Positions 2,098-60,949 of a DNA stretch of 64,000 nucleotides are shown here, in pieces. Source of the DNA: Gemmatimonas phototrophica (GTDB lineage: Bacteria; Gemmatimonadota; Gemmatimonadetes; Gemmatimonadales; Gemmatimonadaceae); the NCBI RefSeq assembly GCF_000695095.2, contig NZ_CP011454.1, positions 3,720,001-3,784,000 of the forward strand, given 5' to 3'. The notes beneath the pieces are model-generated. The model was not told the origin of the DNA, did not search any database, and saw nothing but the letters and a program-made list of their open reading frames with translations. Position numbers and translations under genes: made by a program. Within the stretch, counting starts at the first letter, position 1; each line of letters opens with the position of its first letter.

Positions 2098-3081
2098 TCA
2101 CCGCGACGCCGTGTGGATAGAGAGAAAATGTGTTGTGGCCTCCAGCACGGTGGTACGCAGTCGCCGTTCGGCGAGACGCACATAGCCTTGCGGATCACCG
2201 TCATGATCAGCCAGCAGCAGATGATCGGTGTCGCGGAAATGCCGCACGTCCACCGGTGCCGCGCCGGCGCCACGGAGCACCTGCGCCAGTTCGTCGGCTT
2301 GGAACGGCGGCACCTGCTGGTCCGTCTCGCCGTGCAGTAGCAACACCGGCACGCGGACGTCGCGCGCCACCGCACGGGGGTCGAGCACAAACCACGTCCG
2401 TAACCATGGATCATCACGTGCCATGGCCTCCGCCTGCGCGTCGGCCGTGGCCAGTACGGTTGCCTGCTCCTCCGCCGGCCAGCGGGCGCGATTGCCCGTC
2501 ACCAACTGCTCACGTTGCCACCGGGCAATCTCCCGACCGGGGCGCGACGGCGCCCCCCACAAGACCAGCGCCGTCAGCGTTGGATCGCCCCGCGCCACCA
2601 GCAACGCCACCACCGCTCCCTCACTGTGACCCACCACTGCCACGCGCGCCGCGTCCACCGTGGGGTGCCGGCGCAACCATGTCAGCGCGGCCTGTGCATC
2701 ACGGGCGAAGTCCTCCGTGGTGGCGCCGGCAAACTGTCCTGTGGACTGGGCCGTCCCCCGATCATCCAGACGCAGAACCGCCAGCCCCGACGCAACCAGT
2801 ACGTCGCTGAGCTCGCGCCACGGCGCGTACCCCGGCAGTTCCAATCGCGTACCATCACGGTCCTGTGCACCGGAACCACCGAGCAGCAGGACCGCGCCTA
2901 CCGGCGCCTCATGCGCGTGCGCCGGATATGCCAGTGTCCCGGCCAACGTGGTGCCGGGATCGACCACCACGCGCACCGCCTCCTCCTGCCATGCCGGGCG
3001 CGGGCCCGGACGTCGGTCGCACCCGCTGACCATCAGCGTGAGCCCCGCCAACAGCAGCGCCCACGGCAATCGTCTGCGCAT
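2098..3081 (-). CDS. Lipoprotein alpha/beta hydrolase
   Basis: This is a 327-residue alpha/beta hydrolase with a lipoprotein signal (LTLMVSGC, lipidated Cys21), so it is likely anchored in an envelope membrane facing the periplasm. The catalytic triad is readable: Ser153 in VVGHSEGAV, Asp254 in LLHGETDQQVPP and His287 in FRDTDHLLL. An oxyanion-type LLLGGSGAQDRDG precedes it. The arrangement resembles dienelactone hydrolase / BAAT-like or prolyl-oligopeptidase-type esterases. The substrate cannot be inferred. It starts 3 bases after nfo and is probably co-transcribed with it. Confidence 0.85.
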   Translation of the reverse strand: MRRRLPWALLLAGLTLMVSGCDRRPGPRPAWQEEAVRVVVDPGTTLAGTLAYPAHAHEAPVGAVLLLGGSGAQDRDGTRLELPGYAPWRELSDVLVASGLAVLRLDDRGTAQSTGQFAGATTEDFARDAQAALTWLRRHPTVDAARVAVVGHSEGAVVALLVARGDPTLTALVLWGAPSRPGREIARWQREQLVTGNRARWPAEEQATVLATADAQAEAMARDDPWLRTWFVLDPRAVARDVRVPVLLLHGETDQQVPPFQADELAQVLRGAGAAPVDVRHFRDTDHLLLADHDGDPQGYVRLAERRLRTTVLEATTHFLSIHTASR

Positions 3082-3084
3082 GTC

Positions 3085-3984
3085 TCAGGGCGTGTCCTGC
3101 GCCAGCTGACGCAACAGGGCCACGTCTTCCACCTCCCAGGGATCAGGGGTGGCGTCATCCTCGGCCACCTCCGACACCGCCTGCGGAGTTTCCAGAATGA
3201 GTGGAATGCCGGCCGCACGACGATCCTGCAGCAACCACCCAAATGGCGTCGCCCCGATGAGCCCCTGCCCGATGCGCGCGTGCCGATCCTTGTTCGACCC
3301 CATCGCGCCTTCGCTGTCATTCAGGTGCAGAAACGCCGGCGGCTCCCCGGTGGCCGCTTCGAAGGCATCCAGCACGCCGGTGAGTGCCTCGCGCGACTCC
3401 GCGATGGGAAAGCCCGACGCAAACAGGTGACAGGTATCCAGCCCGTACCCCGTGCGATGCCGCTGATCGGCCGGAATGCCACTCAGCATCAGGGCCACTT
3501 CATCGGGGGTGCGCCCCACGGTCGTCCCGGCTCCCGCCGTGTTTTCAATGAGCAACCGGGTGCCACTCTCCGGCACCGTGGCCAGCGCTCTGCGCATCGC
3601 CTCACTCACCCGTTCACACGCCTCAGTACGGTCGCCAGTGGTGGCCGCACCCGGATGAAAACACACGCCACGGACGCCCAGCGCACTCGATCGTTCAAAC
3701 TCCTTGGCCAGTCCGGCGGCAGCGCGCGACCACTTTTCGTCGTCGGGGGTGGCGCAGTTGAGGACGTAGGCCGCGTGCACGATGACCTGGTCCGGCGAAA
3801 TACCCGCCGCCTCCAGTGCCTCTACAAAACGCGCCACCCGATCGGGTTTTACCCCGACTTTGTCGTTGTAGTACTTGGGGATGGCACTGAAGATCTGCAG
3901 CGCCTGCATTCCACCGTTCCCGGCCCGACGCGCGGCCATGGGAATACCGCCGGCGTCGATACAGTGGGCACCAATGTGAAGCAT
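3085..3984 (-). CDS. nfo: Deoxyribonuclease IV (endonuclease IV, AP endonuclease)
   Basis: This 299-residue enzyme cleaves DNA 5' to abasic sites and removes 3' blocking groups in base-excision repair. All nine zinc ligands of the TIM-barrel family can be placed: His70, His110, Glu147 (LLIENTAGAG), Asp183 and His186 (GLDTCHLFASG), His220 (FLHLNDSEG), Asp233 and His235 (KDRHARIGQG), and Glu265 (LILETPQ). The length is typical. No Shine-Dalgarno is visible before the ATG. The lipoprotein hydrolase gene follows 3 bases later on the same strand. Confidence 0.95.
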   Translation of the reverse strand: MLHIGAHCIDAGGIPMAARRAGNGGMQALQIFSAIPKYYNDKVGVKPDRVARFVEALEAAGISPDQVIVHAAYVLNCATPDDEKWSRAAAGLAKEFERSSALGVRGVCFHPGAATTGDRTEACERVSEAMRRALATVPESGTRLLIENTAGAGTTVGRTPDEVALMLSGIPADQRHRTGYGLDTCHLFASGFPIAESREALTGVLDAFEAATGEPPAFLHLNDSEGAMGSNKDRHARIGQGLIGATPFGWLLQDRRAAGIPLILETPQAVSEVAEDDATPDPWEVEDVALLRQLAQDTP

Positions 3985-31602: not shown

Positions 31603-31740
31603 GGTAACGGCGTTATGATAAAAGCGTTATGGGTTACCGGGTTACCGCGTTACGGCGGGAACTGCACTGGAGGTGCCGCGATTCCGCGGTTCCGCAGTTA
31701 CTCGGTAACCCGATAACCCATAACCCATAACGCTGTTACC
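31603..31740. repeat. Inverted-repeat element, copy A
   Basis: 138 bp bounded by GGTAACGGCGTTATG on the left and the complement of GGTAACAGCGTTATGGG on the right. The arms (about 60 bp, imperfect) contain the phrase GGGTTACCGGGTTACCG or GGGTTATCGGGTTACCGAG. It would fold into a long hairpin with a loop of about 15-20 bases. The right end stops one base before the start codon of the decarboxylase gene. Same family as copies B and C. Confidence 0.85.
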
Positions 31741-43264: not shown

Positions 43265-43387
43265 GTAACTGCGTTATGGATGACGGCGTTCTGGGTTATC
43301 GGGTTAACTCGTAACGGCGGGTCGCTGTCCCCCGCTGTTATCGCTTACCCGATAACCCAGAACGCCGTCATCCATAACGCCTTTACC
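43265..43387. repeat. Inverted-repeat element, copy B (perfect 34-bp arms)
   Basis: 123 bp. The arms 43271-43304 and 43347-43380 are perfectly complementary over 34 bp and surround 42 bp. The ends read GTAACTGCGTTATGG and, on the other strand, GGTAAAGGCGTTATGG. It lies between the convergent fusion gene (stop at 43258) and the Spy-like gene, whose stop codon TAA (43385-43383) is part of the element. The arm sequence differs from copies A and C (GGATGACGGCGTTCTGGG replaces one GGGTTAT unit). Confidence 0.9.
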
Positions 43388-52517: not shown

Positions 52518-54551
52518 ATGGGCTTCCTCGTTCCCGCGTTCCTTGCCGGACTGGCGGCACTGGCCATCCCGTTGCTGCTGCATTTGCGGCATCGTGACCG
52601 CGACAAGCCGCAGCCGTTTCCGTCGCTGATGTTCCTTGAGCAGCTCACCATCCGTACCGAGCAGCGCCAACGGGTAAGTGATTGGCCCCTGTTGCTGTTG
52701 CGGTTGCTGGCGCTCGCGCTACTGGTCCTCGCGTTCTCGCGACCGCTGTTCCGGTCGCGCGGGGTCGCCGCTGGTGATAGCCGCAGCAAAGCGGTGGTGT
52801 TGCTGATCGACCGGTCGCTAAGCATGGGCTACGAGGGGACGTGGGCACGGGCCCTTGATTCCGCGCGGGCAATCATTGGCCGCTCCGGCAACGGGGATCG
52901 CGTGGCCGTGGTCGCATACGATGACGTTGCCGAAACCCGGCAGCGACTGACCACCGACAAGGCGGCGGCCAGTGGTGCCTTGGCGGGGCTCTCCCCGCAG
53001 CCCCGCGGAACGCGACTGGCACCGGCGCTGCGGGTGGCGCGTCAGCTGCTGCTCGATGCGCCCTTTGCGGCGGCGGAGATTGTCGTCATCTCCGACTTGC
53101 AGCGCGCCGGCGCGGTAGGGGTGGCAGGGGTGGAGCTGCCCGCAGGCGTTGCGGTGCGCGGGCTCGCGGTGGGGCCGGAGCAATGGGAGAACAGCACGGT
53201 GCACGCGGTGGATGTACGCCGGGTGCTCAGCGGCGAGCGCACATTGCTGGCCGTAAAGGCGCGGATCCAGCGCCATGGGGGTACCGCACCGCAACAGCGC
53301 AGCGTGCGTCTGGTGCTGAATGGGCGTGAAGCCGCCTCGCAGGCCGTAACGCTTTCGAACAGTGGCGAGTCTGTAGTCACGTTTGATCCGGTACCCGCCC
53401 CCGAAGGGGCGGTGGCGGTACAGCTCGCCCTGTCCCCCGATGCGCTGGCCGCCGATGATACGCTCGTGGCGGTCGTACCTCGCGACAACGACGTGCCGGT
53501 CACGCTGATTGGCGGCGGTGGAACGCCGACCCTCTTTCTGGAGCGGGCACTCAGCATTGGGCGGGCGCCATCCATTCGCGTGGAGCGGGAGTCCGGTCGA
53601 GTACGTCCTTCAGCGCGGACAGGCGTACTGCTGTACTGGGATGTTGTACCCAACGAGAATATTGCGTCGTGGCTGGAAGCCGGTGGCGGGGCGGTGGTGG
53701 TCGTGGGCCCGCAACTTGGTGCGCGTCGTGGCTCCCTGTCTCCGTTGCTGCCGGTCACGGTGGCTGGCGCGGCCGATCGGTTGAGCGATCGTGGTGGCAC
53801 GTTGCGTGACGTGCGTACCGAGCACCCACTCTTTGCCCCATTCCGTGAAGTGCCCGATGCTCTGGGTGCTGTACGATTGTTCCGGTACACCCGCCTTGAT
53901 GCGACGACCGAGGGGGATGTACTGGCGCGCTTTGACGATGGACTGCCGGCGGTGGTTGAACGCCGCATAGGTGACGGGCGTGTGCTGGTGCTGGCCCTGC
54001 CGCTTGATAACAGCGGTGGTGATTTCCCGTTGCAGCCGGCGTTTCTCCCCTTTGTGCGGCAACTGGTGATGCACGCCTCGGGGCGCGATGCCATGCCGCT
54101 CTGGCGCACGACCGGCGAGCGGTGGGCTGTTCCGGGCACACTCACCACGCCAGTGGTCGAGGCGCCGGATGGTTCACTGATCCGGCCGATGGTCGATTCT
54201 CTTGGCGCGGCCGTGCTTCTCACCGACGCCGGCGTGTATCGCGGCTACAGCGAGCGGGTGGGTGGTGAAGCCGGCGCGCTGCTGGCGGTCAATGTCCCGA
54301 CGTCCGAGTCGGTGCTCACGCCCATGGATACCACCGAGCTGTTGCTGGGCGTGCGGACAGGAATGGACAGTGCCCGCGCCACCGGCGATGCGCCGCTAAG
54401 TGATGAAGACCTTGAGCGGCGGCAGTCGCCGTGGCGTCTGTTGTTGGTGGTGGCGCTGGTGCTGCTCGCCGCGGAAACGCTGGTGGCAACCCGTGGCCGC
54501 CGTGGTACCGCCCGCCGTGTTGTTTCGCCGTCTCGCACAACCACGCCATGA
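52518..54551 (+). CDS. BatA-like membrane VWA protein
   Basis: 677 residues. The N-terminus MGFLVPAFLAGLAALAIPLLLHLRH is the BatA domain (first membrane helix), a second helix lies at about 57-74, then a VWA domain with metal site Asp98-Ser100-Ser102 (LLIDRSLSMGY). The long periplasmic part includes a segment with IASWLEAGGGAVVVVGPQL that resembles the amidotransferase-like fold of the first gene in the operon. One C-terminal helix (about 640-656). Such proteins pair with MoxR and DUF58 in aerotolerance-type operons; the actual role is unknown. Confidence 0.85.
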   Translation: MGFLVPAFLAGLAALAIPLLLHLRHRDRDKPQPFPSLMFLEQLTIRTEQRQRVSDWPLLLLRLLALALLVLAFSRPLFRSRGVAAGDSRSKAVVLLIDRSLSMGYEGTWARALDSARAIIGRSGNGDRVAVVAYDDVAETRQRLTTDKAAASGALAGLSPQPRGTRLAPALRVARQLLLDAPFAAAEIVVISDLQRAGAVGVAGVELPAGVAVRGLAVGPEQWENSTVHAVDVRRVLSGERTLLAVKARIQRHGGTAPQQRSVRLVLNGREAASQAVTLSNSGESVVTFDPVPAPEGAVAVQLALSPDALAADDTLVAVVPRDNDVPVTLIGGGGTPTLFLERALSIGRAPSIRVERESGRVRPSARTGVLLYWDVVPNENIASWLEAGGGAVVVVGPQLGARRGSLSPLLPVTVAGAADRLSDRGGTLRDVRTEHPLFAPFREVPDALGAVRLFRYTRLDATTEGDVLARFDDGLPAVVERRIGDGRVLVLALPLDNSGGDFPLQPAFLPFVRQLVMHASGRDAMPLWRTTGERWAVPGTLTTPVVEAPDGSLIRPMVDSLGAAVLLTDAGVYRGYSERVGGEAGALLAVNVPTSESVLTPMDTTELLLGVRTGMDSARATGDAPLSDEDLERRQSPWRLLLVVALVLLAAETLVATRGRRGTARRVVSPSRTTTP

Positions 54552-54567
54552 AGCCGGAGCACAGCTC

Positions 54568-57500
54568 ATGAGTCCCGATCGGCAGTTGCTCACCATTCTC
54601 AGCGCGCTGCGTCGTCAGTGGCGCCTGCGCGTGGGTGTTGAATCGTTGGTGTGGCTGGCCACTGCGGTGGTACTGGCCGTGCTGTCCGCCTTGTTGGTGA
54701 CGCGCCTGTTCGCCGGGAGTGAGACCGGACCGGTGGTCGCACGGGCGGTTGGCTATGGGCTCATTGCCGGGGCGCTGGTGCGTGGATTGCTCATGCCGCT
54801 CCTGCGGCGGGCGTCCGACGAACGGTTTGCGTTGTACGTGGAGGAGCGCGAGCCCGCCCTCAAGCAGGCCCTGCTCACCGCGGTACAAGAGGCGCATGTT
54901 CCGGAGCGTGATCGTCCGTCGCCCACGCTGTCGGCGCGGTTGATGTCGCGGGCCGTGACGGCCATCCGGCCGCTCGAGTCGCAGATGTCCCTCGAGCGCC
55001 CGCAGATGATTCGCGCGGGCCAGCTCTTCGGTGCAGTGTCGCTGGGAGCCGCGGCACTGCTGATCTTTGGACCACAGGCGGTGCGAGACGGCGCCCGCGT
55101 GCTCTTCATGCCCTTCGGCACGGCGCAGGCCGCGGTGCCGGTGCGCATGTTGTCGGTGACCCCGGGCAACATGAGTGTCCCGCGCGGTGGTGCCATTGAA
55201 GTGGAAGCCGCACTGGTCGGCTTTGCGGCCTCGAATGCGGAGCTGGTGTTCCGTAGCGATAGCGCAGGCGCATGGCAGCGACTGCCCATGGCCCCCGACG
55301 CCGACTCGTCGCGCTTCAGTTCGCGTTTGTTCGATATTGTGCAGCCCACCGAGTACTACGTAGAGTCGGCCGATGTGAAGTCGGCGGTGTACACGCTCAC
55401 GGTGAACGACCTGCCAGCAGTGTCGCGGGTGTCGCTGGATTTGCGGTATCCGGCTTATAGTGGCATGCCGGCCGAACACATTGAGGATACAGGAGACCTG
55501 GCCGCAGTCGTCGGCACCACCGTGACAGTGCGCGCCAAGGTGACGCGCGCCGTGGCTGGTGGCTCGTTGCGCTTTGATGATGGCCGCGCCGTGGCTATGA
55601 CACGGGAGAGCGACAGCACCGTGGTGGGGAGCTTCACGGTACAGAAGAGCGGGTTCTATCACGTGGATCTGTCCACCGCTGATGGCACCATGGTGGCGGG
55701 TGGCGTGGAGTATGTGGTAGACGCCATCCCCGATCGCGCGCCCATTGTGCGCATTGAAGAGCCGGGGCGCGACACCAAAGTGACCAATACCGATGAAGTC
55801 ACGATTGCCGTGCAGGCGTCGGACGATCTGGGAGTCACGTCGCTGGAGCTCCGCTATCGCGTGAATGGCGGCGCAGAACAGAAAGTGACCATGGGCAGTG
55901 GCTCGCGTCGTCCGCGTGATGCCCGCGGCGCGCACACGCTGTTCCTGGAGGAGATGTCGCTGCAGCCCGGTGATCTCGTGGCATACCACGCCGTAGCGAA
56001 GGACGGGGCCGGTCTGGTGGGGAGTAGTGATGTGTACTTCCTCGAAGTCCGCCCCTTTGGCAAAGACTATCGTCAGTCGGATCAGCGGGCGCAGCAGCAA
56101 CAGCAGGGCGGCGGTGGGCAACCACAGGGTGATTCTCCTGATGGCTTTGTGGCGCGTCAGCGCGAAGTCGTCGCTGGCACCTTCAACTGGTTGCGCGACA
56201 GCGCCAGCACCAGCGACAAGCAGCGCCGGGAGAACATGACCACGCTGGCCATCGCCGAGGGGCGGTTGCGGGAAGAGGTGGACCAGCTGGTACAGCGCCT
56301 CGCCGAACGCGGCGTGGCGGCGCAAGACTCAACCTTTGCCAAGATTCGCACGGAGCTGAAGCAGGCCACCGTCGAGCTCAAAGGCGCCGAGGAGCAGCTG
56401 GGACGCGTGCGCGGCAATGATGCTCTGGGTCCTGAGCAGCGGGCGCTGCAGCGACTGCAGCGCGCCGAGGCGCTCTATCGCGATGTGCAGGTACAGATGG
56501 GTGGGGGCGGGGGCGGCGGGGGCGGTGGTGGCGGCGGACAGCAGCGCGCCGAAGACCTGGCCGATCTGTTTGAACTGGAGAACGACAAGCAGCGCAACCA
56601 GTACGAAACCGTTCAGCAGCAGCGCGCACAGGATGGCGCGCAGCCGCAGGTGGACGAATCGCTCGAGCGGTTGCGTCAGCTGGCGAGTCGTCAGCAGCAG
56701 GAGAACGAACGTATGCAGCGCATGGCCGAGGCCATGCGGCAGCGCCTGGCTCAGGAAGGGGGCGCAGCGGGTGCGACGGCCGGTGGTAGTGCCGCTGCCG
56801 GCGGGAAATCGTCGGGCAGCCCCAGCGGCAATAGCGGTGCCAGTGGGGCGCAGCGTGAACTGGCCAAACAGGCGGAAGAGGAAGCCCGTCGTCTGGAGCG
56901 ACTGGCCCGCGAGGAAGACAATCAGGAACTGCAGCGGGCCGCGCAGCAGTTGCAGCAGGCGGCAGACAACATGCGCCGTGCCGCCACGGGATCGGCCGCG
57001 CAAGGCAATGCGGCACTCGAAGAACTGAATCGGGCAACCCGCAATCTCGAGGGCGCGCGCGCTTCGGGCACCACCCGTGGCATTCAGCAGCTGGCGGACA
57101 AGGCGCAGGAGTTGGAAGCGCGGCAGCAGCAGATTGCCGAGAGTGTAAAGGGGCTGCAGGGTGCGTCGCCCGGTGAACGGGCGCAGCGGCAGCAGCAGGT
57201 GGCACAGCAAAAGGATCGCTTGAGCGAAGAGGTGCGTCGCCTGGAGAGTGACGCGGATCGCCTGTCACGCGCGGCGCGCCGTGAGCAACCCAAGGCCGCT
57301 GGACAGATCGCCGGCGCTGCCGATGCCATTCGGGATACGCGTCTGGCGGACAAGATCGACTTCTCCAAGCAAGTCGCGCGCAGCGGCAGCGCGGAGTATG
57401 CGGAGTCGTTCGAGAATCAGATTGGCGAAAACCTGCGCGATGTGTCGGAGCGCTTACGGAACGCCTCCGGGTCACTACAGGGCGAATCGGCTGCTCGTGG

Positions 57501-58224
57501 GCAGGAGCGCACGTTGGAGCGTACGCGCGACCTGGTCGCCGGCATGGAGTCGCTGCGGGACCGCATGGCCGAGCGTGGCCAGCAAGGGGGGCAGCAGGGA
57601 CAGCAAGGCCAGCAGGGGCAGCAGGGCCAGCAGGGCCAGCAGGGCCAGCAGGGCCAGCAGGGGCAGCAGGGCCAGCAGGGCCAGCAGGGCCAGCAGGGCC
57701 AGCAGGGCCAGCAGGGCCAGCAGGGACAGCAAGGACAGCAAGGACAGCAAGGACAGCAAGGACAACAGGGCGGCCGTGCCGGTGGTGCTGCACAGGGCGC
57801 GGCGCGCGGCGGCGGGCGCCCCACGAACGAGATGGGCCAGATGGGTGGTTCTGCACCCATGGGAGCGCCTCGTGGCGAGGCGGAGCAGTTTGCGCGCGAA
57901 ATGCGGCTGCGCCGTCAAACGGCAGAAGACCTGCGCCGTGAAGCAGCCGCACAGGGCGTGGGCACGCAGGATCTCGACCGCGCCATTCAGGCCATGCGCG
58001 AACTGGAGAACAGCCGCGCCGGCGGCGACCCGAAGGGTGTGGAGCAGTTGCAGACGGCACTGCTGGAGCGACTCAAGGACTTTGAGTTCTCGCTGTACCG
58101 TGCCGTTGCCGGCACCGGTGAAGGGCGCCCGGCGGTCGGGGCGCGCACGAGCGCGCCGGCGGAGTACCGGCAGATGGTGGAGGAGTATTATCGGGCGCTC
58201 GCAGGGGGACGGAAAAAGCAGTAA
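54568..58224 (+). CDS. DUF4175-like membrane protein with long coiled coil and GQQ repeats
   Basis: A 1218-residue protein. Three hydrophobic segments in the first 165 residues, a periplasmic Ig-like region (about 190-500, with VSRVSLDLRYPAYSGMPAEH), then about 450 residues of Gln/Arg/Ala/Glu-rich coiled coil with an internal run of 14 glycines. Next is a tandem (Gly-Gln-Gln) stretch of 20 units at about 1008-1067 and a helical C-terminus with EYRQMVEEYYRALAGG. The architecture resembles DUF4175. The start at 54568 has GGAG eight bases upstream; the frame stays open upstream inside the previous gene. The stop TAA lies within repeat element C. Confidence 0.75.
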   Translation: MSPDRQLLTILSALRRQWRLRVGVESLVWLATAVVLAVLSALLVTRLFAGSETGPVVARAVGYGLIAGALVRGLLMPLLRRASDERFALYVEEREPALKQALLTAVQEAHVPERDRPSPTLSARLMSRAVTAIRPLESQMSLERPQMIRAGQLFGAVSLGAAALLIFGPQAVRDGARVLFMPFGTAQAAVPVRMLSVTPGNMSVPRGGAIEVEAALVGFAASNAELVFRSDSAGAWQRLPMAPDADSSRFSSRLFDIVQPTEYYVESADVKSAVYTLTVNDLPAVSRVSLDLRYPAYSGMPAEHIEDTGDLAAVVGTTVTVRAKVTRAVAGGSLRFDDGRAVAMTRESDSTVVGSFTVQKSGFYHVDLSTADGTMVAGGVEYVVDAIPDRAPIVRIEEPGRDTKVTNTDEVTIAVQASDDLGVTSLELRYRVNGGAEQKVTMGSGSRRPRDARGAHTLFLEEMSLQPGDLVAYHAVAKDGAGLVGSSDVYFLEVRPFGKDYRQSDQRAQQQQQGGGGQPQGDSPDGFVARQREVVAGTFNWLRDSASTSDKQRRENMTTLAIAEGRLREEVDQLVQRLAERGVAAQDSTFAKIRTELKQATVELKGAEEQLGRVRGNDALGPEQRALQRLQRAEALYRDVQVQMGGGGGGGGGGGGGQQRAEDLADLFELENDKQRNQYETVQQQRAQDGAQPQVDESLERLRQLASRQQQENERMQRMAEAMRQRLAQEGGAAGATAGGSAAAGGKSSGSPSGNSGASGAQRELAKQAEEEARRLERLAREEDNQELQRAAQQLQQAADNMRRAATGSAAQGNAALEELNRATRNLEGARASGTTRGIQQLADKAQELEARQQQIAESVKGLQGASPGERAQRQQQVAQQKDRLSEEVRRLESDADRLSRAARREQPKAAGQIAGAADAIRDTRLADKIDFSKQVARSGSAEYAESFENQIGENLRDVSERLRNASGSLQGESAARGQERTLERTRDLVAGMESLRDRMAERGQQGGQQGQQGQQGQQGQQGQQGQQGQQGQQGQQGQQGQQGQQGQQGQQGQQGQQGQQGQQGQQGGRAGGAAQGAARGGGRPTNEMGQMGGSAPMGAPRGEAEQFAREMRLRRQTAEDLRREAAAQGVGTQDLDRAIQAMRELENSRAGGDPKGVEQLQTALLERLKDFEFSLYRAVAGTGEGRPAVGARTSAPAEYRQMVEEYYRALAGGRKKQ
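57589..57768 (+). repeat. Twenty tandem 9-bp repeats (GGCCAGCAG and variants) coding Gly-Gln-Gln
   Basis: In-frame minisatellite of 20 units of 9 bp inside the DUF4175-like gene, with mostly GGCCAGCAG units, then a cluster of GGACAGCAA units at the 3' end. Near identity of neighbouring units suggests recent slippage and probable copy-number variation; any change by whole units keeps the frame. Confidence 0.9.
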
Positions 58225-58379
58225 CTGCGTTATGGGTTATGGGTTATCGGGTTACCGAGTAACTGCGGGTAACTGCGGCATTGGGGTTTTGCTCGCACAG
58301 TGGCGATCGCGGCGTATTGTGGATGATGCGTGCATAAAAACGGTGACAGGGGATTCAGCGTCCTGTAGTACCGTCGTGC

Positions 58380-58760
58380 ATGTCAAATACCACGCAACTA
58401 CGCGTGCTGGACGCGGCGCTGCATATGGTGGAGGAGGTGCATCGGGAGAGCCTCCTCATGCCGGTAGAACGCGTACCCGGGCTGCGAGCACAATTACTGC
58501 GCGCCGTGGATGCGGTGCCGGCGAACATCGCCGAAGGGGCGCGGGGCTCTCGTTCGCAGTTTGCGAACTTTCTGCGCATCGCACGCGGCTCGGCCGACGA
58601 AGTCGCAATACACCTGCAAGTCGCCAGACGAGCGGGCGCCATGTCTGAGACGGCCTACTGGCGATGCGAAAACAGCCGAGTCGTCGTCTGCAAAATGCTC
58701 AGCCGACTCATTCGCACCCTCGACGAGCACGCCGCGCATGCCGTCAACGACGCGTACTGA
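58380..58760 (+). CDS. Four-helix-bundle protein of the S23/IVP type
   Basis: A 126-residue helical protein of the family found in intervening sequences of 23S rRNA genes and scattered elsewhere (and structurally akin to the Avd accessory protein of diversity-generating retroelements). Signature: QLLRAVDAVPANIAEGARGS, SQFANFLRIARGSADEVAIHL, then VVVCKMLSRLIRTL. It is not in an rRNA gene here; it sits alone inside an inverted-repeat element. No clear Shine-Dalgarno. Biochemical role of the family is unknown; nucleic-acid binding is assumed from charge and from Avd. Confidence 0.85.
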   Translation: MSNTTQLRVLDAALHMVEEVHRESLLMPVERVPGLRAQLLRAVDAVPANIAEGARGSRSQFANFLRIARGSADEVAIHLQVARRAGAMSETAYWRCENSRVVVCKMLSRLIRTLDEHAAHAVNDAY

Positions 58761-58771
58761 GGAAAAAGGAA

Positions 58772-58802
58772 GGGCACCGGAAGCGAAGCGCCCCCGGTGC
58801 CC
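58772..58802 (+). terminator. Hairpin after the four-helix-bundle gene
   Basis: A 9-bp perfect stem (GGGCACCGG and its complement) with a 13-nt loop starts 12 bases after the stop codon and ends just before the right arm of element C. No T-tract. It probably terminates the gene within the element. Confidence 0.5.
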
Positions 58803-58875
58803 GTATCGCAGTTACCCGCAGTTACTCGGTAACCCGCTAACCCATAACCCATAACGCCGTTACGCCGTTCCGCAG

Positions 58876-60756
58876 TTACCCCTGTGCCTCTGCCCACAAC
58901 TTCCTGGTAACTCCGAGCAGGACAAAGCCGCTCACCGCGAACACCGCGGTCAGAATCCACGCGTCGGTGAGCCGCGACGCATCGCCGGAGGCGTACAGGA
59001 AGTTGCCAATGGCAAACAGCGACGACCAGATCACGACACATCCGGAGATCCATCCCAGCAGCGAGGTCCCCATGCGGTTTTCCTCCGCCACTACCTGATC
59101 GCTGATCCCGGCTTCGGCGCGCTGCGACGTCCAGCCGGGTCCTGCCGGCTTCACCTTGCGCACGAAGGCCAGCAGCGTGGCACGATCGGTTTGCGGCCCC
59201 ACAAAGGCCGTCACCAGCCAGGCGACGGTGGTAATGCCCACCTGCACGATGGTCGTGGTGGCAAAGTCGGCACCGGGCATGAGCCGCGGCACCGCGAGTG
59301 AGGTGACCAGCGACATGACCATCGCCACGATTTCACACCATGCCGAGACGCGCCACCAGAACCAGCGGGCGATGTACAACAGCCCGGTACCGGCCCCGAT
59401 GGACAGCAGAACCTGGAACGCCTGCTGGGCCGAACTCATGGTGAGACTGAGCAAGGCGGCGAACACATACAACAGCAGCGTCGATAGCCGGCCGGCATTC
59501 ACGTAATGCGAATCCGGGGCGTCCTTGCGCACGAACCGACGATAGAAGTCGTGCACCAGATACGACGAGCCCCAGTTCAGGTGCGTCAGGATGGTGGACG
59601 AGTTGGCGGCCAGCAGTCCGCCAATCATGAGTCCCACGAACCCGACGGGCAGAAACTTGAGCATCGCCGGAAACGCCGAGTCGTGTCCGATCAGCGAAGG
59701 GTCTGCCGTGGGAAACGCCGCCTTGATGGAGGCGAGGTCGGGGTAGACGATGATAGAGCAGAGCGCCGTGATGATCCACGGCCACGGACGCAGCACGTAG
59801 TGCGCGATGTTGAAGAAGAGCGTACCGCCGAGCGAATCTTTTTCCGACTTGCTGGCCAGCATGCGCTGCGCGATGTACGATCCGCCGCCGGGCTCCGCGC
59901 CCGGATACCAGTTGGCCCACCAGCTGATGGCGATGGGCAGAATGAAAATCATGAGCGCCAGCTCGGACATGCTGAAGTTGGGCATCATGTCGAGAATGGG
60001 CTGTCCGGCGCCGTCCTTGACCGACATGACCGGCTGTGCATCCCCGGGCCCCTGCACCACCTGCAGCGTGGAGAGGCGCCCCACCAGCAGCTTGAGCCCC
60101 AGCCAGCCATTGGCGTCGTTGCCCAGCCGCCGTCCCACTTCCACCAGCGAGAACCACGCGGCGGCAAAGACGGCCGTCATCTTGATGAAGAACTGGATCA
60201 TGTCGATGACGAGCACCCCCCACAAACCGGAGTGCGCGGCAAACACCACATTGAGAACGCCCGTCAGCAGAATGGTCTGCCACGGCGACAGCCCGAACAG
60301 GATGTTGGCGATCTTGCAGGCGGCCAGCGTCACCATGCCCATGATGAAGCAATTGAAAAACAAGCCGAGGTACACGGCGCGAAACCCGCGCACCAGCGAC
60401 GCCTCCCGCCCCGAATAGCGCAGTTCGTAGAACTCGAGATCCGTCAGCACACCGGAACGGCGCCAGAGCCGTGCAAAGAAGAACACCGTGGCGATGCCGG
60501 TGAGCACGAACGCCCACCATTGCCAGTTACCCGCCACCCCGTAGCGACGCACCTGTTCGGTCACCCAGTTGGGGGTGTCCGAGGAAAAGGTAGTGGCCAC
60601 CATCGACAAGCCCGCCAGCCACCACGGGACCGACCGACCGGAGGCAAAGAACTCGGTGGTGCTGGAGCCGGAGCGCTTGGCAAGGAAGAGCGCCGGGACA
60701 AAGCACACCAGGATCGAAATGAGGACGATGACCCAGTCTATCCAGGAAATGGTCAT
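58876..60756 (-). CDS. Sodium:solute symporter family transporter
   Basis: A 626-residue membrane protein with about 13-14 helices of the SSS (sodium/glucose, proline) superfamily. N-terminal helix ISWIDWVIVLISILVCFVPA, then FFASGRSVPWWLAGLSMVATTFSSDTPNW (the family's early GR-xxWW region), GSYIAQRMLASKSEKDS, and IGGLLAANSSTILTHLNWGSSYLVHDFYRR. The substrate is unknown; no catabolic genes adjoin it. ATG at 60756 was chosen because it begins the first helix; the frame is open 93 bases upstream. The stop codon is part of repeat element C. Confidence 0.9.
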   Translation of the reverse strand: MTISWIDWVIVLISILVCFVPALFLAKRSGSSTTEFFASGRSVPWWLAGLSMVATTFSSDTPNWVTEQVRRYGVAGNWQWWAFVLTGIATVFFFARLWRRSGVLTDLEFYELRYSGREASLVRGFRAVYLGLFFNCFIMGMVTLAACKIANILFGLSPWQTILLTGVLNVVFAAHSGLWGVLVIDMIQFFIKMTAVFAAAWFSLVEVGRRLGNDANGWLGLKLLVGRLSTLQVVQGPGDAQPVMSVKDGAGQPILDMMPNFSMSELALMIFILPIAISWWANWYPGAEPGGGSYIAQRMLASKSEKDSLGGTLFFNIAHYVLRPWPWIITALCSIIVYPDLASIKAAFPTADPSLIGHDSAFPAMLKFLPVGFVGLMIGGLLAANSSTILTHLNWGSSYLVHDFYRRFVRKDAPDSHYVNAGRLSTLLLYVFAALLSLTMSSAQQAFQVLLSIGAGTGLLYIARWFWWRVSAWCEIVAMVMSLVTSLAVPRLMPGADFATTTIVQVGITTVAWLVTAFVGPQTDRATLLAFVRKVKPAGPGWTSQRAEAGISDQVVAEENRMGTSLLGWISGCVVIWSSLFAIGNFLYASGDASRLTDAWILTAVFAVSGFVLLGVTRKLWAEAQG

Positions 60757-60949
60757 GGGCAGGTCACCGGCGGCAGGAAACGGGGAAGGACAGGCACATG
60801 GGGCGGGAATGTGGGGGGCCGTCGCCCACGGGGCAACGAGGGAGGCCATTCTCCCCCGCCCGCCGCCGCCGGGCCGTCACCGCGGTGTCCTCGTCATCCC
60901 GTCATGACACTCCTGGCCGGGACCGTGACACATCGACCGTCCCGGCGGT

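Follow-up and report, generated by a model that had tools for sequence, protein, structure and literature searches.

S23 genes between inverted heptamer arrays: a candidate class of minimal mobile element in Gemmatimonas phototrophica and other bacteria

Genes of the S23 family, which encode four-helix-bundle proteins, have been regarded for about 30 years as ribosomal RNA (rRNA) oddities of unknown function, being known as open reading frames (ORFs) within the intervening sequences (IVSs) of 23S rRNA in Leptospira and Coxiella. The tandem heptamer repeats of bacteria, among which the STRR repeat of Calothrix is another orphan, have remained an unexplained curiosity for about as long. Both subjects meet in the unit described here, in which an intact S23 gene lies in the loop of an inverted repeat made of heptamer arrays in the genome of Gemmatimonas phototrophica, within a stretch of 64,000 nucleotides (the window; C1:3720001-3784000 of the single 4,716,552-bp contig). 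On balance, we favor the reading that such a unit is a minimal mobile element, the S23 element, in which an S23 gene alone lies in the loop between two inverted heptamer arrays and encodes a protein that would read the cognate arrays and help them to spread.

The 23S rRNA IVSs resemble the window unit in that the S23 gene occupies the loop of an inverted repeat. The window unit, however, is located in intergenic DNA between protein genes and not in a 23S rRNA helix, belongs to a dispersed multicopy family, and has long heptad arrays as arms. In Coxiella, the S23 ORF of the 23S IVS is preceded by tandem GACAGAT heptamers with a copy number varying between strains (PMC4990558), and the rRNA IVSs therefore look like, and probably are, special cases of S23 heptad elements. 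The systems of repetitive extragenic palindromes and their associated tyrosine transposases (REP/REPIN-RAYT) likewise combine a single gene flanked by cognate palindromic repeats with many gene-less intergenic copies, but S23 is a four-helix bundle rather than a Y1 HUH nuclease, and its repeat unit is a heptamer. Miniature inverted-repeat transposable elements (MITEs) share the short unit, the inverted termini, and the many gene-less copies; the S23 unit differs in encoding its own conserved protein and in lacking both a consistent target-site duplication and a parent transposase, the search for the latter having covered Y1 and RVT_1 only. The Avd protein of diversity-generating retroelements (DGRs) shares the fold, but at 10-13% identity and with no reverse transcriptase in the window genome.

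Heptamer repeats have been reported as GGGAATC in Xanthomonas and GGGGAYT in Nostoc (PMC4692102), and from Beggiatoaceae, Cyanobacteria, and Bacteroidetes, including TAACTGA in Beggiatoaceae and Microcystis (PMC4679880). Like the arms described here they are intergenic 7-nt tandem arrays, and in Xanthomonas campestris, the species of the solved S23 protein XCC0516 (2GSC), they form about 70 convergent pairs; unlike in the present case, neither report mentions S23. We propose that the orphan heptamer repeats may be linked to S23. No paper joining S23 genes to heptamer repeats was found in a search that did not extend to subscription papers and preprints, so priority is not certain. The S23 protein family and its rRNA form are already known; were S23 shown to drive the wider class, that class would be new.

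The window unit spans positions 58221-58863 (about 640 bases), with 529 nt separating two inverted arms of 57 nt each that are 96% complementary; the length and identity of the arms, together with the control sets given below, exclude a chance origin. The framing of a lone S23 gene by inverted arms, reported in a preliminary description with arms of 51 bp, is thus confirmed, with the correction that the unit does not run to 58880, the additional bases belonging to an incomplete further copy of the motif at the outer side of the arm. A period of 7 is evident in the left arm (GTTATGG, 3.6 copies), and the unit accordingly fits the description of an S23 gene between inverted heptad arrays.

The same description held that S23 genes are not normally framed by terminal inverted repeats, whereas such framing is in fact the general state of S23 genes across many phyla. 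When protein sequence alone served to collect S23 genes in 150 genomes of the phylum, at 80 loci from many phyla, and on viral contigs (30 matches), and when bracketing was defined by a local alignment of the 350-nt flanks scoring at least 30, a bracketing inverted repeat was found at 77% of 156 S23 genes. The corresponding values were 2.8% for mismatched flanks, 1.9% for 267 other ORFs, and 1.8% for 1103 random windows of the same loci. With one-sided arrays included, 147 of the 156 genes have an inverted repeat or a heptad array. The median unit is 504 bp long, and no S23 match was obtained in a phage collection. The novelty lies in the rule thus exposed rather than in one framed gene; the class is widespread and apparently undescribed.

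More telling than the framing itself are a 7-nt code and an inward G-rich polarity of the arms, both missed by the earlier reading. The excess self-identity of the arms was +0.37, +0.33, +0.26, and +0.11 at lags 7, 14, 21, and 28, respectively, and near zero at most others. In a 7-nt profile of 80 arms, position 1 is G in 90% and position 7 is A or G in 92%, with a variable interior—that is, an RG step recurs every 7 nt—and the profile holds 3.09 bits of information, as against at most 2.35 bits in 30 position-permuted controls. Read inward to the gene from either side, G is richer than C in 113 of 120 arms (p ~1e-25). Array similarity also increases with protein identity (rho 0.19; 0 of 300 permutations). 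Scoring of the published orphan heptamers with a position weight matrix of the heptad was not discriminating (top 5-53% of all heptamers) and supports no claim. Very long and regular arrays of AAGGATC and GGTGGAC types were seen at L115 (upstream of 4824) and L175 (around 2815-3216); the GGTGGAC-type arrays exceed 260 nt per arm, and the arrays at both loci would be good substrates for binding tests.

Within the 4.72-Mb genome, the window region gave 105 matches, nearly all to the arms, at roughly 40 places, and most copies of the family are gene-less hairpins with loops of 8-40 nt. The window arms are among the cleanest, with 1 derived base in 84, compared with an average of about 9% over 24 hairpins. 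Because they nearly match the family consensus, the gene-bearing window copy is likely the master of the roughly 40 dispersed copies. The genome carries four S23 genes in all, each in or beside a different multicopy hairpin family: the window arm family, an ACTGAAA family (76 matches), a family with the long repeat CCACTGCGGTT (30 matches), and a GGTGAGA/TCAGATC family (57 matches). Three of the four genes are bracketed, the window gene by its cognate dispersed palindromes, and the S23 gene at 1684458 has a complete hairpin on its downstream side only. The preliminary description had regarded repeats abundant everywhere and unassociated with four-helix genes as fatal to its idea; half of this holds, in that the repeats are abundant, whereas every family is tied to a single S23 gene.

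Two further observations concern the gene-less copies. Several of them (L024, L026, L028, and L031) are chimeric, with one arm of the window family and the other of the family belonging to the S23 gene at 1231390. In the copy at 43265-43387, unlike in most other hairpins examined, both arms differ from the family consensus along a long stretch in which they agree with each other, which suggests templated copying between arms.

Evidence of movement comes from four pairs of filled and empty sites with flanks of 85-96% identity (L241/L245, L243/L246, L242/L249, and L217/L219), in which the inserts comprise an array, the gene, and an inverted array, and nothing else. In a plasmid of Picosynechococcus PCC 7003, an S23 unit lies between cas10 and cmr3, where PCC 7002 has 32 nt; in Nostoc C052, a unit follows a TraM-like gene at a place where Nostoc C057 has 42 nt, with flanks 94-96% identical; Nostoc ATCC 53789 carries a unit, with a possible target duplication of 10 nt, at a site that is empty in plasmid pC052_B of Nostoc C052; and in Nostoc edaphicum, a unit separates nrdB from nrdA, which have 13 nt between them in Calothrix NIES-4105. 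Such presence and absence of a whole block in closely related plasmids shows that the S23 unit moves. Thus, the idea of a minimal mobile or selfish element, first raised for the window unit alone, is well supported at the level of the class, by these sites and by the private repeat family of each S23 gene.

A fifth pair, L216/L218 (cas6-S23-cas4), was not counted as a clean empty site, since the relative without S23 has a different insert there. This insert, in the cas6-cas4 spacer of Dolichospermum UHCC 0315A (L218, 1128-1400), is a hairpin with a GTTGGGTT... motif at the place of the S23 unit of Anabaena 90. S23 units occur inside cas operons in the Anabaena sp. 90 plasmid (L216, 2495-2863, cas6-cas4) and in the Picosynechococcus PCC 7003 plasmid (L241, 1492-1848, cas10-cmr3). 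S23/IVP has been listed among the proteins newly associated with CRISPR adaptation modules (PMC10910872), and insertions of this kind within the cas operons of two cyanobacterial plasmids may explain that association more simply.

The window S23 protein matches PF05635 (E 2e-20, 73.2 bits; cut-off 33.8) and TIGR02436 (E 1e-22, 80.2 bits; cut-off 24), and its AlphaFold model has a pLDDT of 96.4. The folds closest to the predicted structure are those of 2GSC (XCC0516) and 2RLD (BT_0352), with Z scores of 18.0 and 17.6, followed by the DGR Avd structures 4DWL/8UB7 (Z 14-16, root-mean-square deviation ~1.6); Foldseek/VIA matches beyond these were set aside as generic helical bundles. A homopentamer is cited for the S23 protein of solved structure (PMC4990558). 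Residues Q38, R41, N49, E52, S71, and E74 are nearly invariant. Across 23 S23 pairs the median dN/dS is 0.13, from which it follows that the protein is kept by selection; S23 proteins evolve under purifying selection.

The arrays are private to the species. No match to the window arm was found in six congeners by the same search that was positive in its own genome. Among the homologues collected, the one closest to the window protein (50% identity, as against 40% for the next) is in the congener G017. It occupies the equivalent locus, on the downstream side of the same DUF4175-type gene, but in inverted orientation and framed by arms of a different family; matches to that family number 40 in G017, with none in G000 and a single weak one in the other congeners. 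Therefore, either the S23 lineage has long resided at the DUF4175-type locus or two separate hits occurred there, with complete turnover of the arrays. Similarly, one Viridilinea S23 gene has an arm that is matched 21 times in the same genome but not at all in five others. A comparison of C1:2354371-2356234 of G017 with 58876-60849 of the window shows that the symporter-type gene adjoining the element is placed elsewhere in G017 and that a PAS-type gene directly follows S23 there, so that the locus has been rearranged.

As to mechanism, the S23 protein, a homopentamer by homology, would recognize the heptad arrays cognate to it, most probably in the form of DNA, with the oligomer reading the repeated RG heptads, and may help the arrays to spread with or without the gene. 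Breakage and joining of DNA would be performed by S23 itself or borrowed from the host, because neither a Y1 transposase nor a reverse transcriptase was found: searches of the genome with the Y1_Tnp and RVT_1 profiles gave no match, with the former matching in 6 of 14 control genomes. On the same grounds, RAYT/Y1 and reverse transcriptase/DGR explanations were rejected. The step that moves DNA is thus S23 itself, another transposase family (only Y1 and RVT_1 having been searched), or host repair.

Several points weigh against the S23 element as a mobile unit driven by its own protein. A possible target-site duplication is seen in only one of the four pairs (L242/L249, ~10 nt, diverged), with 13-42 nt replaced at the junction in the other three; an empty counterpart of the window copy was not found, the pairs coming from cyanobacterial plasmids and not from its genus; and the negative transposase result covers the Y1 family only. 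The correlation between arms and protein arises mainly from pairs above 55% identity, so that common descent contributes to it. Finally, covariation between arms is absent in 24 hairpins including the window copy (P 0.27), in agreement with a first look at 16 and with the copy at 43265-43387 as the one striking exception, and upkeep of the hairpin is therefore unsupported.

Among the alternatives, mobilization in trans by a terminal-inverted-repeat transposase, an integrase, or a reverse transcriptase, with S23 as an accessory or passenger in the manner of Avd for the DGR reverse transcriptase, appears rather unlikely. It draws on the fold common to S23 and Avd, on the MITE-like inverted termini, and on the integrase genes adjoining some S23 relatives, but the genome has neither RVT_1 nor a Y1 transposase, and the arrays are family-specific, matching the local S23 gene and not any common terminus. 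Were the unit instead an RNA-level parasite, its transcript would form a hairpin with the ORF in the loop, be bound by the protein, and be tolerated through removal by RNase III, as in the rRNA IVSs. The Coxiella IVS, with GACAGAT heptamers just upstream of the S23 ORF and excision by RNase III (PMC4990558), provides a precedent; the arms are able to form strong hairpins, and the G-rich polarity is fixed relative to the gene. Yet G.U-compatible changes among the arm mismatches are not in excess of A.C-type changes on the sense RNA (163 vs 161), gene-less copies show no arm covariation, and an Rfam search of 57800-59300 gave no match, so that we regard this explanation as distinctly unlikely. 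The earlier idea of an RNA hairpin as the form in which the protein binds the repeat accordingly finds no support; given the two negative tests for selection on pairing, recognition of the arrays as DNA is favored, an absent signal not being proof.

It is very improbable that the arrays arose by slippage or are host regulatory or G-quadruplex repeats, with S23 genes merely located among them or binding them for a host purpose such as transcript stabilization or nucleoid structure. Heptamer arrays are certainly abundant in these genomes, with lag-7 runs near 15% of control ORFs, and regulatory roles were proposed in the earlier heptamer papers (PMC4679880; PMC4692102); against this stand the filled and empty sites of the whole unit, the approximately 40-fold enrichment of bracketing at S23 genes, the one private family per S23 gene in the own genome, and the species-private families at the orthologous locus. 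A phase-variable or invertible switch, with the S23 gene turned around by recombination of one arm with the other, is scarcely credible: the opposite orientation of the nearest homologue at the orthologous G017 locus would fit it, but the arms there are of a different family, which a simple inversion does not explain, and no promoter-like site was found near the window gene.

If every S23 protein has a heptamer family of its own, the two long-standing puzzles would merge into one testable system, with a protein having a readable target code, tiny mobile elements spread over many phyla, and a probable origin for numerous intergenic hairpins. If S23 were to move DNA without a known nuclease, this would be new chemistry. 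A bolder form of the S23 element proposal is tentative, and as a whole we would not yet expect it to hold: that these elements are pan-bacterial mobile DNA without a recognized transposase, in which a pentameric S23 reads a private heptamer code and itself drives array spread, the rRNA IVSs and the orphan heptamers of cyanobacteria, Xanthomonas, and Beggiatoaceae being members or debris.

The features of the window are collected in Table 1. By names read from their sequences, the neighbors of the unit appear to be a DUF4175-type gene (54400-58224), the stop codon of which is overlapped by the first bases of the left arm, and a sodium:solute symporter-type gene in convergent orientation, the end of which closely follows the right arm.

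Table 1. Coordinates of the S23 unit and of related features, as positions in the window.
Feature	Position	Strand	Basis
Gene-less hairpin copy of the window repeat family, intergenic (L022)	31604..31739		Genome repeat matches
Gene-less hairpin copy of the window repeat family, directly after a stop codon	43265..43387		Genome repeat matches
Left (upstream) arm	58221..58277	+	Heptad array read inward to the gene; inverted-repeat search; multicopy in genome
(GTTATGG)x3.6, where the heptads of the left arm are most regular	58229..58254	+	Tandem Repeats Finder, period 7
S23/IVP four-helix-bundle gene, 126 aa	58380..58760	+	Sole credible gene between the arms; PF05635, TIGR02436
Short GC-rich hairpin between S23 stop codon and right arm	58772..58802		Terminator-like on the - strand only; inverted-repeat search
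Right (downstream) arm, repeating the left arm in inverted orientation	58807..58863	-	Inverted-repeat search
Incomplete further copy of the outer arm motif (CCGCAGTTACCC)	58865..58881		Repeat search

Two tandem repeats of other kinds were seen in the window. Within the DUF4175-type gene, twenty 9-nt repeats (GGGCCAGCA) at 57588-57771 encode a GQQ run, which is expanded in G017 too. At 1646-1802, tandem repeats of 15-48 nt (GCCTTCTTGGC...) probably encode a Lys/Ala-rich histone-like tail on the - strand.

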